Part shown: piece after piece, positions 1 through 5,303 of the stretch
How the letters are laid out: each line of letters opens with the position of its first letter
Position numbering within the stretch: the stretch's first letter is position 1
Origin: Archangiaceae bacterium
GTDB taxonomy: Bacteria > Myxococcota > Myxococcia > Myxococcales > Myxococcaceae
DNA length: 46,862 nt
Assembly (NCBI GenBank): GCA_016879935.1
Contig: JAACJQ010000131.1
Span: forward strand, 1-46,862
Reading direction: 5' to 3'
The notes under the pieces: model-generated
Seen by the model: only the letters and a program-made list of their open reading frames with translations
Databases searched by the model: none
What the model was told of the DNA's origin: nothing
Translations under genes and position numbers: made by a program

Positions 1-259
1 AGAGCCCAAGGGCCATGGCACCGGCCAGTGGATCGAGGGGAAGACCTCGCTCGCCGATGGGGCCGAGGTGGCGATCGTCGAAGACGTGATCACGACTGGC
101 GCGTCGACGATCAAGGCCATCGAGCGGGCGAGGGCCGAGAACCTGAAGCCTGTGGCTGCGTTCGCGCTCGTCGATCGCCAGGAAGGCGGCCGCGAAGCGA
201 TCGAGGCGCTCGGGGTGAAGGTGTACTCGTTGTTCACGCGCGAGGATTTTCCTCGATGA
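1..259 (+). CDS. pyrE: Orotate phosphoribosyltransferase, C-terminal part (5' end outside window)
   Basis: Reads from the window edge in the frame starting at base 2 and ends at TGA 257-259. It joins orotate to PRPP to make OMP in de novo pyrimidine synthesis (cytosol). Visible are the family stretch KGHGTGQWIEG, which forms part of the active-site loop, and the PRPP-binding motif VAIVEDVITTGAS, followed by the final Rossmann-like strand and helix. About 85 residues remain of an enzyme that is usually 180-215 long. The stop overlaps the next start (ATGA at 256-259), so the lipoprotein downstream is translationally coupled. Identification is firm; the missing N-terminus is only due to the window boundary. 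Confidence 0.93.
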   Translation, partial: EPKGHGTGQWIEGKTSLADGAEVAIVEDVITTGASTIKAIERARAENLKPVAAFALVDRQEGGREAIEALGVKVYSLFTREDFPR

Positions 260-855
260 CGCGGGTGGCGCTCGTGGGCCTCGCGCTGGCGCTGAGTTCG
301 TGCGCGAACGCCCGCATTCCGCGCGTGGGCGGAGACCCTCCGCCAGCCGACACGGACGCCGCCTTCGAGTCGGCGTATCAGCAGACGCTCGAGCGCTACA
401 CGCGCAGCCAGGGCGTCTTCGACTTCTTCGACACCAAGCTCTTCGTGCACGCCACGTGGGAGTCTGCGCCGTTCATGGAGGCGCGGGTGAAACGCTTCTC
501 ACGCTTCCGCGCGATGCCGGTCGAAGAGGAGCGGGCCGCGATGGAGGCCGAGCGGCAACGCCTCTCTGACGTGACGGAGTTCCACCTCGCGGTGCACGCG
601 AACGACCCGAAGATGGACGACTTCGATCGCGCAGGCTCGATGTGGCGCATCGCGCTGGTGGCCGACGGCAAGGAGTACACGCCGAAGCTGATCGAGCGCA
701 TCGGGCGCACCACGACCGAGCAGCGATCGATCTACAGCTACATGGAGCCGTTCTGGGTGGGCTACCGCCTGCGATTCCCGAAGACGAGCGGCCCGATGAC
801 GCTGAAGATCGCGTCGTCTGCAGGCAAGGCCGAACTCCAGTTCCCGGGGGAGTGA
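256..855 (+). CDS. Predicted lipoprotein of unknown function
   Basis: 199 residues starting MTRVALVGLALALSSC; the lipobox cysteine is residue 16, so a signal peptidase II lipoprotein is predicted. The ATG at 256 overlaps the pyrE stop and is preferred to an upstream in-frame extension that would run antiparallel in content to pyrE. The mature part is a mixed alpha/beta domain rich in Arg and Glu, with no motif I recognise. It may face the periplasm or be anchored in the outer membrane. It lies 6 nt before the transporter fusion gene and is probably co-transcribed with it. Function cannot be assigned. Confidence 0.8.
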   Translation: MTRVALVGLALALSSCANARIPRVGGDPPPADTDAAFESAYQQTLERYTRSQGVFDFFDTKLFVHATWESAPFMEARVKRFSRFRAMPVEEERAAMEAERQRLSDVTEFHLAVHANDPKMDDFDRAGSMWRIALVADGKEYTPKLIERIGRTTTEQRSIYSYMEPFWVGYRLRFPKTSGPMTLKIASSAGKAELQFPGE

Positions 856-861
856 CGCCGC

Positions 862-3800
862 ATGGCGCGCTCGTGGGCACGACGGCTGGCGCCTGCGGCT
901 GCGTTTCAGTTCTGCTTCATCGGCGCCGTCGCGATGCTCAAGCCCGCAACCAACGCGCTGGTGCTCTCTCGCTTTCAGTCGACCGCGATGCCGTGGCTGT
1001 ACCTCACGGCCGCCATCGTCACGGGCACGCTGGCCATCGCCGGTGCGCGGCTTGGTGGGCGACGACGCAGCCCCGGTTTCCTCGCGCTCCTGGGTGGCGT
1101 GGCGTCGTTCGCGTTTCTGCTGGCCGTGAAGTTCGACGTGCCCTTCACCTCGCTCGGCGCGTACCTCTTCACCGAAGCGCTGGCGACGCAGGTGTCGTTG
1201 GCCTTCTGGGGCACGGTGGGCGAGGCCTTCGACGCGCGGGAGTCGCGGCGGGCCTTCACGTGGATCAACGGCGTCGGCATGTCGGGAGCGATCGCGGGCG
1301 GCTTCCTCGCGCAGGTGGCGGCGCGGGTGGCGGGGGCTCCGGCGCTGTTGTTCGGCGGCGGAGCGCTACTGCTCGCGGGCTTCGCGGCGTTCCGGTTTCA
1401 CCAGAGTGAAGGCGCGTCTGCTCCGATGGCCCGCGGTGGGCTCGCGTCGGTTCGCACGGTGCTCGAGATGCCGTACGCATCGCTGCTGGCGGTGCTGGTG
1501 CTGGGCTTCTCGCTCATTCAGCAGCTGACCGACTTCGTGTTCCGTCAGCGCGCGGTCGAGCTGCTCGGCGAAGCCGACATGGCCGACGTCTTCGCCTCGC
1601 ACCAGCTGTGGACTGGCGTGTTCTGCGTCGTCTTTCAGTTCGTCGCGGCCGAGCCGTTGCTGCGGCGCCTCGGCATTCTTCGCTACGTCGCGCTCGTGCC
1701 CGGCTTCATCGCAGTGCTCACCCTCGTGAGCTGGGCGTGGCCTTCGGTCTGGGGCGCGTGGGCGCTCAAGCTGTTCGAGAGCGCGGCGAGCTGGTCGTTG
1801 CTGCCGGTGGCCGTGCAGCTGCTCTACGCGCCGCTGCCTGACGACGTTCGCGACGGGGTTCGGCGCACCATCGACGGGCTGCTCCGCAAGGCAGGCATGG
1901 GCGTCGCGGGTGTGCTGCTGCTGGCGGTGTCGGCGACGGTCGGGCTCTCGGGCGTGCTGGCGTCGGTGCTCGTCGCGTGCGCGGCGCTGGGCGTGGTGCT
2001 GTGGCGCATTCGGCCGCGCTACCTCGAGGCGCTGCACGTTCGGGTGGCGGGCGTCGAGACGAACAACCTCGTGGGCACCGAGCAGCTGCTCGCGGAGGCC
2101 TTGCGCGCGCCGTCTCCCGAGAAGGCGCTCCGGGCCGCCGAGCTGCTCGAGTACGCGAACGTCATCGACGAGACGCACATTCGGCTCATGCTCGCGCACC
2201 CTCACGAGCGGGTGCAGACGCGAGGCGTGCAGCTCGCGGAGCGGCTCCAGACGACGGCGGTGGCGAGGCAGCTCGAGGTGCTGGTCGGTACCGGGGCGAG
2301 GCGCCCGCGAGATGCCGCGGTCTGGGCGCTGGCACGGCTCGCTCCCGAGCGAGCGCGGGTGGTCCTGCCGCCTTTGCTGACGAGCGAAGACGTCGGGGTC
2401 GTCACGGCCGCCGTTGGCGGAATGCTCTCGTTGCCCGGCCAGAAAGATGGGCGGGCGGTCGCCGCGTTCACGAAGCTCGTCGAGCGGGCGGGCAGGGCCC
2501 CCGTCTCTGAACGCCGTGAGGTCGCGCGGTTGCTGGGGCGCCTGGGCGATCCCGATCACTCCGCGATTCTGGGGCGCTACCTCGACGACGCCGATGGTTC
2601 GGTTCGCCAGGTGGCGATCACCGCGACGGGAGAAGGGCTTCACCTCGAGCTCGCGCCGAAGCTCTTGCGGTTCCTCTCGTGGCGAGACGAGCGCCGGTTC
2701 GCGCGTGATGCGCTGGCGGCCATGGGCGACGATCTCGTTCCGCTGCTCGCGATGACGCTCGACGATCGCAGCCGCGCGCTGTCGTTGAGAACACAGCTGC
2801 CACGCGTGCTGCGTCGCATCGGTACTCAAACGGCCTTCGACGCGTTGCTGCAATCGAACGCGCGAGACGACGCGTCGCTGCACTACCGCGTGGGCGCTGC
2901 GCTCGCGCGAATTCACGATGATCACCCCGAGTTCGACGTCGACCGAGGCCGCGTGATGGAAGCGCTCGTGCGGCGCCGCCACACGCGCGAGGAGTTGCTC
3001 CCGGCGTTTCGCTCGGTTCGCGCTGCGCTCGGAGATTCTTCACTGCTCACACGAGTGCTCGGCGATCGGCTCGATCAGGCCTTCGAGCTGTCGCTGTGGC
3101 TGCTGGGGCTCTTGCACGATTCCCGCTCGTTGCGGCGCGCACACGCCCACCTCACGGGCAACGACGGCAAGCGCAGGGCGTGGGCGCTCGAACTCGTCGA
3201 CAACCTGCTCTCCGACGACGAGAAAGAGCTCATCGCCGAGGTGATCGAGACCCCGCATCGCGCCCAACCCCTGGGTGACGAAGACGCGGCGCGGGTGTTC
3301 GTCGAAGAGCTGTGCCTGAGCACCGACTTCACGTTGCGGGCGTGCGCGAGGCGGGTGGGGCGGGTGATGGGCGTCTGGACGAAGCCCCCGAAGGAGGACG
3401 ACATGAGTGACGTGACGGTGAAGCGGCTCTTCGCGCTCGAGGGCGTCGAGATCTTCGCGCAGAGCGACGTCGACGATCTCGCCGCCGTGGCCGGCGTGGC
3501 GAAGGAGCAGACGTTTCGCAAAGGCGAGCGCATCTACGCCGAGGGCGACCCTGGCGACGCGCTCTACGTCATCGTCGACGGCTCGGCCGAGGCGCGTCGC
3601 GAGAACGAAGTCGTGCTGACCATGAAGGCGCGCGAGAGCTTCGGCGAGACATCGCTCTTCGACGGCGCGCCCCGCATCAACGAGGTCATCGCCACCAGCG
3701 ACACGTCGGTGCTGGTGATCGATCGCCGCGACTTCCTCGATCTGCTCGGCGATCGGCCGGAACTCCTCGGCGGCATGTTCCGGGTGATGTCACGGCAGCT

Positions 3801-3903
3801 GAAGACGATGGTCGTCGAAGTCGCCGCCCGTCGCGCGAACACGGGTGATCTGCCAGCGGTTTCGATGCCTCCCGTCTCGGAGACCGATCGAAACGTCTTC
3901 TGA
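862..3903 (+). CDS. NTT/MFS-like membrane transporter fused to HEAT repeats and a cyclic-nucleotide-binding domain
   Basis: 1013 residues. Residues 1 to about 380 hold roughly ten to twelve membrane segments and resemble ATP/ADP-translocase-like (NTT/TLC) and MFS carriers, with an N-terminal LKPATNALVLSRF stretch and a later EAFDARESRRAFTWINGVG stretch. Residues about 400-830 are HEAT/armadillo-type helical repeats (for example ALARLAPERARVVLPPLL, EVARLLGRLGDPDHSAILG). Residues about 855-975 form a cNMP-binding (CAP_ED) fold: FRKGERIYAEGDPGDALYVIVDG followed by the phosphate-cassette-like FGETSLFDGAPRINEV. The natural reading is a carrier gated or scaffolded by a cytosolic nucleotide sensor. 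The substrate is unknown, and similarity to nucleotide transporters does not prove nucleotide transport. Confidence 0.82.
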   Translation: MARSWARRLAPAAAFQFCFIGAVAMLKPATNALVLSRFQSTAMPWLYLTAAIVTGTLAIAGARLGGRRRSPGFLALLGGVASFAFLLAVKFDVPFTSLGAYLFTEALATQVSLAFWGTVGEAFDARESRRAFTWINGVGMSGAIAGGFLAQVAARVAGAPALLFGGGALLLAGFAAFRFHQSEGASAPMARGGLASVRTVLEMPYASLLAVLVLGFSLIQQLTDFVFRQRAVELLGEADMADVFASHQLWTGVFCVVFQFVAAEPLLRRLGILRYVALVPGFIAVLTLVSWAWPSVWGAWALKLFESAASWSLLPVAVQLLYAPLPDDVRDGVRRTIDGLLRKAGMGVAGVLLLAVSATVGLSGVLASVLVACAALGVVLWRIRPRYLEALHVRVAGVETNNLVGTEQLLAEALRAPSPEKALRAAELLEYANVIDETHIRLMLAHPHERVQTRGVQLAERLQTTAVARQLEVLVGTGARRPRDAAVWALARLAPERARVVLPPLLTSEDVGVVTAAVGGMLSLPGQKDGRAVAAFTKLVERAGRAPVSERREVARLLGRLGDPDHSAILGRYLDDADGSVRQVAITATGEGLHLELAPKLLRFLSWRDERRFARDALAAMGDDLVPLLAMTLDDRSRALSLRTQLPRVLRRIGTQTAFDALLQSNARDDASLHYRVGAALARIHDDHPEFDVDRGRVMEALVRRRHTREELLPAFRSVRAALGDSSLLTRVLGDRLDQAFELSLWLLGLLHDSRSLRRAHAHLTGNDGKRRAWALELVDNLLSDDEKELIAEVIETPHRAQPLGDEDAARVFVEELCLSTDFTLRACARRVGRVMGVWTKPPKEDDMSDVTVKRLFALEGVEIFAQSDVDDLAAVAGVAKEQTFRKGERIYAEGDPGDALYVIVDGSAEARRENEVVLTMKARESFGETSLFDGAPRINEVIATSDTSVLVIDRRDFLDLLGDRPELLGGMFRVMSRQLKTMVVEVAARRANTGDLPAVSMPPVSETDRNVF

Positions 3904-4239: not shown

Positions 4240-4271
4240 GCCCGCTGGTGATCAGCGGGCCTCTCGATCGA

Positions 4272-5240
4272 TCAGAACGCGATGCCCACGCCGACGTAGG
4301 GGCCCATCACCACGTCGCGGCAGCTCCAGTTTCCATTCGTGAGCTGGGTGCAGCCGCGGGTGTCTTCGGGCGTTCCACCGATCACGCCGCGGTCTTCGAG
4401 GATCTGCGAACGGAAGCCCGCGCGAATGCCGATGGAGTCGATGCCGAGCACCAGGCCAGCGCGCATGTCGAGCTGCCAGATCGGCCACGGCGTCGCGAAC
4501 ACGGCGCCCTCGATCGCGAACGGCCCCGCGATCCACAGCTGGCCCGAGAGGCCGCCGGTCGGCGCCATGATGATCAGATCTTGCGCGAAGAACGTGTCGG
4601 CGCCGAGCTCGGCGCGCAGGCGGCCGTATCGGCCAGTGAGGAACGCGAACGTGAGGTGGGCGTTGAGCTGCGACATCTGGTTCATCTGCGTCTGAATCGT
4701 CTGGCCCATCAGCGACACGCCAAAGCGCTCACCTTCGAAGAGCCCGGTGAGCCCGAGCACGTACCCCGAGCCGTTCGTCGTCGAGAGCGAGTACAGCCCT
4801 TCGACGCCCGCCGTGACGCGAATGCCCGACGGCTCCTCGCGCACCGACTCCTGCTGGCCCTGAACGACGACCGCGCCTGGAGCCGGCGTCCAGTACCCGT
4901 AGCCGTAGCCGTACGTCGGCACGAACGCGCCGGAGTAATAGCCGTAGCGGTACGGCCGGTACGAAGGCCCCCAGCCGTTGGACCAGCCGGTGTACCCGCG
5001 CGAGTAGCCCGAGCTGTACGAGCTCGACGACCCGCCCGAACCGACGGGAACGGCCCCGTGATAGTTGCTGCCCGACGAGGACGACGAGGACGACGAGCTC
5101 GAACTCGAGCTGCTGGAGGATGAGGAGGACGAGCTCGAAGAAGACGAGCCGCTCCCGCGTCGGCCGAACCGGGCCTCGGCGTTTCCAGCGACCAGCATCG
5201 ACACCACAAAACCGACCGACAGCGCGCGGCGTAGGCTCAT
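4272..5240 (-). CDS. Poly-serine outer-membrane beta-barrel-like protein
   Basis: 322 residues. The start is set by ATG 5240 with a GGAG Shine-Dalgarno about 7 nt upstream; the frame stays open far upstream, but that part is the antisense of other genes. Order: signal peptide (MSLRRALSVGFVVSMLVAGNAEA), Arg/Gly patch, 25 consecutive serines (codons 5073-5147), a Gly/Tyr/Ser-rich low-complexity section (GYSRGYTGWSNGWGPSYRPY), then about 190 residues of alternating strands ending in GPYVGVGIAF with terminal Phe, as in barrels inserted by BamA. The Ser/Tyr/Gly segment is probably surface-exposed or crosses the periplasm. No enzymatic motif is seen. Confidence 0.78.
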   Translation of the reverse strand: MSLRRALSVGFVVSMLVAGNAEARFGRRGSGSSSSSSSSSSSSSSSSSSSSSSSSSGSNYHGAVPVGSGGSSSSYSSGYSRGYTGWSNGWGPSYRPYRYGYYSGAFVPTYGYGYGYWTPAPGAVVVQGQQESVREEPSGIRVTAGVEGLYSLSTTNGSGYVLGLTGLFEGERFGVSLMGQTIQTQMNQMSQLNAHLTFAFLTGRYGRLRAELGADTFFAQDLIIMAPTGGLSGQLWIAGPFAIEGAVFATPWPIWQLDMRAGLVLGIDSIGIRAGFRSQILEDRGVIGGTPEDTRGCTQLTNGNWSCRDVVMGPYVGVGIAF

Positions 5241-5303
5241 TGGAAGACTCCTTCGACAACACGATACGAAAACGGCGGGAAAACATTCACTCCGGAGCCA
5301 CCT
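5241..5303. promoter_or_regulatory. Divergent promoter region between poly-Ser barrel and SGNH hydrolase
   Basis: A 63-bp spacer between divergent starts, clearly more AT-rich than its surroundings (ACGATACGAAAACGG, GGGAAAACATTCAC). It carries the Shine-Dalgarno sequences of both genes (GGAG for the minus gene, CCGGAG near 5292 for the plus gene). On the minus strand TATCGT lies at a position compatible with a -10 element. Promoters in both directions are inferred from gene orientation and base composition, not shown. Confidence 0.4.

Follow-up and report, generated by a model that had tools for sequence, protein, structure and literature searches.

The window analyzed here, a 46,862-nucleotide stretch of contig JAACJQ010000131.1 from an Archangiaceae bacterium (assembly GCA_016879935.1), carries on its forward strand a single open reading frame of 1013 amino acids (862..3903). 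This frame fuses an NTT (TLC)-type membrane domain (residues 1–400, 862..2061), a HEAT-repeat region (about residues 406–836, 2077..3369) and a C-terminal cyclic nucleotide-binding domain (cNBD). All three were scored above their Pfam cut-offs: TLC/NTT (PF03219) with 24 bits on the whole protein against a cut-off of 21, and 29.6 bits with the N-terminal 400 residues alone; HEAT_2 (PF13646) with 33 bits; and cNMP_binding (PF00027) with 65.4 bits against 27.5, at residues 883–962. An earlier note, made from the sequence alone, had described one polypeptide combining a transport domain, HEAT repeats and a CAP_ED-type domain and had proposed a domain search and structure prediction as checks; the frame and the Pfam matches bear this description out. 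In the AlphaFold2 model of the fused protein (mean pLDDT 70.3, pTM 0.46), the membrane domain is helical with mixed confidence, alpha-helical repeats occupy about residues 406–836 (pLDDT 72–93 for ten-residue blocks between 411 and 840), and the C-terminal portion is cNBD-like with low confidence.

A lipoprotein-like ORF without a Pfam family (256..855, +) lies 5′ of the carrier gene, its stop 6 nt before the carrier start. Relatives of this ORF lie upstream of the carrier at the closest loci and at some distant ones (e.g. L033, L034, L040, L099, L110–L116 and L145); none was found upstream at L036–L039 and L041–L098, some of which include only a short upstream stretch. From this comparison, the ORF and the carrier gene probably form an operon in close relatives and also in certain other families. 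On the 3′ side, in the part of the window described here (up to about 9 kb), we found a minus-strand ORF of 110 aa, which likewise has no Pfam family, and genes for a GDSL lipase, an Fpg-type DNA glycosylase and a PEGA-domain protein. The minus strand at about 4270–5290 also contains a frame in which a long serine run precedes a Gly/Tyr-rich stretch.

Among named records, the closest come from Myxococcaceae and Archangium MAGs (12 loci). Since 90 of 96 host-family genomes gave a match at E ≤ 1e-20 (G082, one of the 90, with weak matches only) and 80 distinct orthologues could be aligned across the HEAT–cNBD junction, the fusion is not a chance frame. In the phylum as a whole, 153 of 195 genomes matched at E ≤ 1e-15, host family and split paralogues counted in. 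A search of plasmids for relatives of the carrier gave no match, and the NTT family was absent from 14 control genomes, so that fusions in other phyla were out of reach by that route. The comparisons below use a host-family set of 85 distinct sequences (the 80 aligned orthologues plus L144–L148), an outside set of 31 fused frames from beyond the host family, and an alignment, A2, of 31 membrane domains (the window protein and 30 relatives).

In cyclic nucleotide-binding domains, a cassette glutamate contacts the ribose and an arginine contacts the phosphate. The cassette of the window cNBD, FGETSLFDGAPR (residues 927–938, 3640..3675, +), contains both, as Glu929 and Arg938. The earlier note had pointed to a phosphate-cassette-like sequence here and had named cassette residues incapable of holding a cyclic nucleotide as evidence against its reading; because Glu929 and Arg938 are both present, the claim stands at the level of sequence, and the geometry of the loop is low-confidence. 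Structure prediction delivered membrane helices and HEAT helices and fell short at this loop, which is largely below pLDDT 50 both in the fusion model and in a second AlphaFold2 model of the cNBD alone (pLDDT 63). The solved structures that best match the cNBD are PKA-R and CRP domains, several of them with cAMP.

It could be argued that the cNBD has a structural or protein-binding role and holds no cyclic nucleotide. The fused relatives beyond the host family lend weight to this possibility, since the cassette glutamate is present in just 7 of 31 and lost in 24, and the arginine is kept in 22 and replaced by histidine in 9. Against it, the host family retains Arg938 in 84/84 covered sequences and an acidic residue at 929 in the same number (63 Glu, 21 Asp), and the best solved matches are the PKA-R and CRP domains; we therefore regard a ligand-free cNBD as rather doubtful. 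Nine sequences of one family (L117–L125) have a cassette of the LGGVSLLDQKPH type, with arginine changed to histidine and glutamate to glycine or serine, which suggests another ligand or none. Cyclic-nucleotide binding by the window cNBD appears somewhat probable from its residues; it is plausible here and not constant across the architecture. Gating of the carrier by a second messenger is a proposal that may not generalize, as the cassette residues are often lost beyond the host family. Class III cyclases of the same genome, represented by 17 Guanylate_cyc domain matches, could supply the ligand.

The linker between the HEAT repeats and the cNBD reads AAG GAG GAC GAC ATG AGT GAC. It contains a Shine-Dalgarno (SD)-like AAGGAGG (3391..3397, +) followed, after ACGAC, by an in-frame ATG (3403..3405, residue 848), the whole AAGGAGG-ACGAC-ATG spanning 3391–3405. 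This ATG opens a nested frame (3403..3903, +) predicted to encode a free cNBD of 166 amino acids. Residue 848 is encoded by a start codon in all 85 host-family sequences (57 ATG, 24 TTG and 4 GTG). When the residue is leucine, its codon is TTG in 24 of 24 cases, and TTG makes up just 9.4% of all leucine codons in those genes. Among the 116 alignment columns that are leucine in all 24 sequences, 848 included, it is the only one that is entirely TTG; the next highest reaches 54%, and none of the other 115 is constant for this codon, though 69 contain some TTG. Likewise, of 52 columns that combine methionine with leucine or valine (848 included, each kind in no fewer than 5 sequences), only 848 has a start-like codon for every leucine and valine. 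Parsimony on a tree built without the site places 6 codon changes at 848 within the host family, with every observed state a start codon. A hydrophobic position could partly explain the Met/Leu/Val mixture, which leaves the TTG unexplained, and some other constraint on the DNA at this codon might also act. The residue that follows is Ser in 77, Asn in 5 and Ala in 3 of the 85 sequences, as at many protein N-termini.

Beyond the host family the linkers are divergent. A start codon is found at the exact aligned column in 20 of the 31 outside sequences and within an 8-codon window in 29, mostly with an SD-like sequence; L113 and L114 have no start codon in that window. The combination of start codon and SD scored better than 95% of windows from the same gene in 28 of 31 (L130 gave p 0.056). 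Over the 18 outside sequences less than 60% identical, 15 of which fell below 0.05, Fisher's combined p was 5e-21; these p-values are rough, because the windows overlap and the sequences are related. The same test gave p<0.05 in just 59 of the 85 host-family sequences. As a control, other placements of a cNBD inside long frames of the same genome (10, at 8 loci) gave p<0.05 in 1 of 10, several of the anchors being placed by weak alignments.

Hybridization to the anti-SD was strong at the internal site, with a mean energy of -8.9 kcal/mol compared to -2.6 over 992 columns and -2.55 at 1436 other internal ATGs. The site ranks second among the columns, behind only the adjacent one, which uses the same SD. 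When synonymous codons were resampled in all 85 host-family sequences, an SD at least as strong as that observed arose in 422 of 500 draws; with 27 representatives the figure was 5 of 500. The synonymous-codon test on the full set of 85 thus gives no support for selection on the SD at the DNA level; most of its strength is set by conserved amino acids, so that the start codon, and not the SD, is the strongest evidence for an internal site. By our reading of the counts, 83 of 85 host-family sequences share one codon register for the SD core and 2 use another; outside, the first register accounts for 16 of 29, the second for 11, and 2 are ambiguous. Since the SD recurs in differing registers, nucleotides recur and not amino acids alone. 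The mRNA around the site is less structured (-9.3 versus -14.9 kcal/mol, 41 representatives), a difference that is not significant in these representatives after G+C correction (p 0.24).

A second copy of the system in the same genome is split (L002:24-5065, contig C18). It consists of three genes, of which the first encodes a transglutaminase-domain protein, the second an NTT-HEAT protein of 985 aa and the third a cNBD by itself; a GDT1-type gene lies between the second and the third on the opposite strand. At 11/11 distinct loci of the split paralogue, the frame of the free cNBD contains a start codon aligned with the internal one (10 ATG, 1 GTG), and further loci have an aligned ATG in 3/3, for a total of 14/14. 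The free cNBD frames extend 13–141 codons further upstream, and an SD is mostly slight or lacking (about -5 in 2 of the 11 loci and -2.3 or weaker in the rest, with little at the likely start in the genome studied here), so these starts are ones that we infer. Fused and split arrangements would differ in how they are translated. In one genus, a third and distant clade of fused genes (L149, L160 and L161) has TTG after GAGGAGG, with adjacent leucine codons that vary.

Collectively, the conserved internal start, its SD-like sequence and the aligned starts of the split paralogue point to two proteins: the gene probably yields the carrier together with the free 166-aa cNBD, and we consider translation from the internal start likely. 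Alternatively, the gene could encode an ordinary single-product carrier as already published, with the tethered cNBD alone tuning transport by cAMP and the internal start persisting as an unused relic of a separate cNBD gene. Both the architecture and the regulatory hypothesis are indeed in print (PMC5381601, in the part we draw on), and SD strength follows mostly from amino acids. The HEAT–cNBD junction is open, with no stop, in 116 fused frames, and this fits translation of the fusion as well; the frames were selected for spanning the junction, and a few are truncated by contig ends. A relic should decay, yet the start codon has been retained in 85/85 host-family sequences through its 6 codon changes, TTG is used without exception where leucine is encoded, and 29 of 31 sequences beyond the host family keep a start in the window. 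For these reasons we find a single product unlikely and favor the two-product reading.

The membrane domain is related to solved nucleotide transporters. A profile of the 31 domains matched NTT structures from Chlamydia pneumoniae (9j3n, E 4e-14) and Arabidopsis (9j3j, E 2e-10), and 21 of the 31 rows of A2 matched TLC (PF03219) at E ≤ 0.01. With our moderate-confidence model as query, Foldseek retrieved 9j3m and 9j3n (TMt 0.60, rmsd 6.5–6.6). In plant NTT1, binding of ADP has been linked to Lys155 and that of ATP to Lys527, and Glu245 has been connected with translocation and not with binding (PMC3306366, in the part relied on here). In the HMMER alignment to 9j3j, Lys155, Glu245, Glu385 and Lys527 of AtNTT1 face Tyr47, Glu105, Asp224 and Met346, respectively; the AtNTT1 residues fit chain positions 71, 161, 301 and 443 by an inferred constant offset of 84, and the stretch around Lys155 is weakly scored. 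Glu385 is a further residue of AtNTT1 singled out in other work. Throughout A2, the Lys155 column is Tyr in 31/31, the Lys527 column is Lys in 0/31, the Glu245 column is Glu in 27 and Asp in 4, and the Glu385 column is Asp in 31/31. ATP/ADP exchange is doubtful because the two lysine positions are occupied by Tyr47 and Met346, and a plain ATP importer was rejected, as both binding lysines are absent. From these columns, the NTT mechanism looks partly retained and the classical nucleotide site does not; that the domain carries something other than ATP or ADP seems to us an evenly balanced proposition.

The same substitutions would fit a membrane part that no longer transports and serves as anchor or receptor, the protein acting as a signaling scaffold by way of its HEAT and cNBD parts (a "transceptor"), because the Lys155 position is uniformly Tyr and the Lys527 position uniformly non-Lys. 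The Glu245 and Glu385 positions nevertheless stay acidic, the former being the one tied to translocation in the part of PMC3306366 cited above, and the fold resembles solved NTTs, which makes loss of transport improbable.

Major et al. (2017, PMC5381601) described both NTT-HEAT-cNBD fusions and a split form, with the cNBD encoded by a gene of its own after the NTT-HEAT gene. Such fusions are found in many bacteria. In the part of that paper used here, what they do is stated to be unknown, and binding of cAMP by the cNBD is suggested as a possible means of adjusting ATP uptake; the gating idea of the earlier note was therefore already in print. The window gene matches these fusions in all three domains and in their order and is a member of this published type. 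The nested start is a new addition to it: that part of the paper does not mention an internal start inside the fused gene, and we found no description of one inside NTT-HEAT-cNBD genes in the open-access literature, where papers naming Myxococcus xanthus and ribosome profiling likewise included none on the subject by title. On the whole, the earlier interpretation is partly supported, its reading of the domains being right.

Several known systems share parts of this arrangement. The single-domain transporters AtNTT1 and C. pneumoniae NTT1 (9j3j, 9j3m and 9j3n) have a homologous membrane domain and are alike at the acidic Glu245 and Glu385 positions; AtNTT1 differs in having Lys155 and Lys527 where the window protein has Tyr and Met, and the latter carries HEAT repeats and a cNBD in addition. 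The top Foldseek matches by E-value are to the sperm Na+/H+ exchanger SLC9C1, also a secondary transporter, for which structures with cAMP and with cGMP have been solved. SLC9C1 carries its cNBD at the C-terminus, and it has a different transport fold and no HEAT arm. Its matches give TM values of 0.10–0.14, with no common fold along the whole chain, and homology was rejected on these values. Internal in-frame starts are found in the genes for CheA and IF2. Another case is cas8b, in which initiation at an internal methionine gives Cas11b as a second in-frame product (PMC11899642, in the part drawn on here); those proteins are unrelated and from an archaeon, and internal initiation was demonstrated there by experiment and is proposed here from sequence.

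As a whole, the explanation that we favor, and hold to be reasonably probable, is a two-product NTT-HEAT-cNBD gene whose cNBDs regulate the carrier. The full-length product would be an NTT-type carrier with 11 or 12 long helices, a HEAT solenoid, presumably facing the cytoplasm, and a tethered cNBD. Its substrate would be a phosphorylated or other small metabolite, and probably not ATP and ADP in classical exchange. The second product would be the free 166-aa cNBD initiated at the ATG at 3403. Cyclic nucleotide would be sensed by the cNBDs and signaled to the carrier via the HEAT arm, a route of coupling that we put forward tentatively. Free cNBDs may associate with their tethered counterparts or act as a buffer for the ligand, and the ratio of free to tethered domains would therefore set the response. 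More speculative still is the idea that across the phylum this carrier gene retains, nested within it, a complete gene for the carrier's own regulatory domain, and that free and tethered cNBDs together form the sensing unit of a secondary carrier controlled by cyclic nucleotides; we think this broader form rather improbable as it stands.

If this broader form is true, one mRNA would set the dosage of both carrier and sensor, in a dual-product carrier of a kind undescribed in the literature searched. Given the conserved internal start, experiments confined to the fusion may overlook half of the system. Such a gene would tie bacterial cyclic-nucleotide signaling to a secondary carrier.
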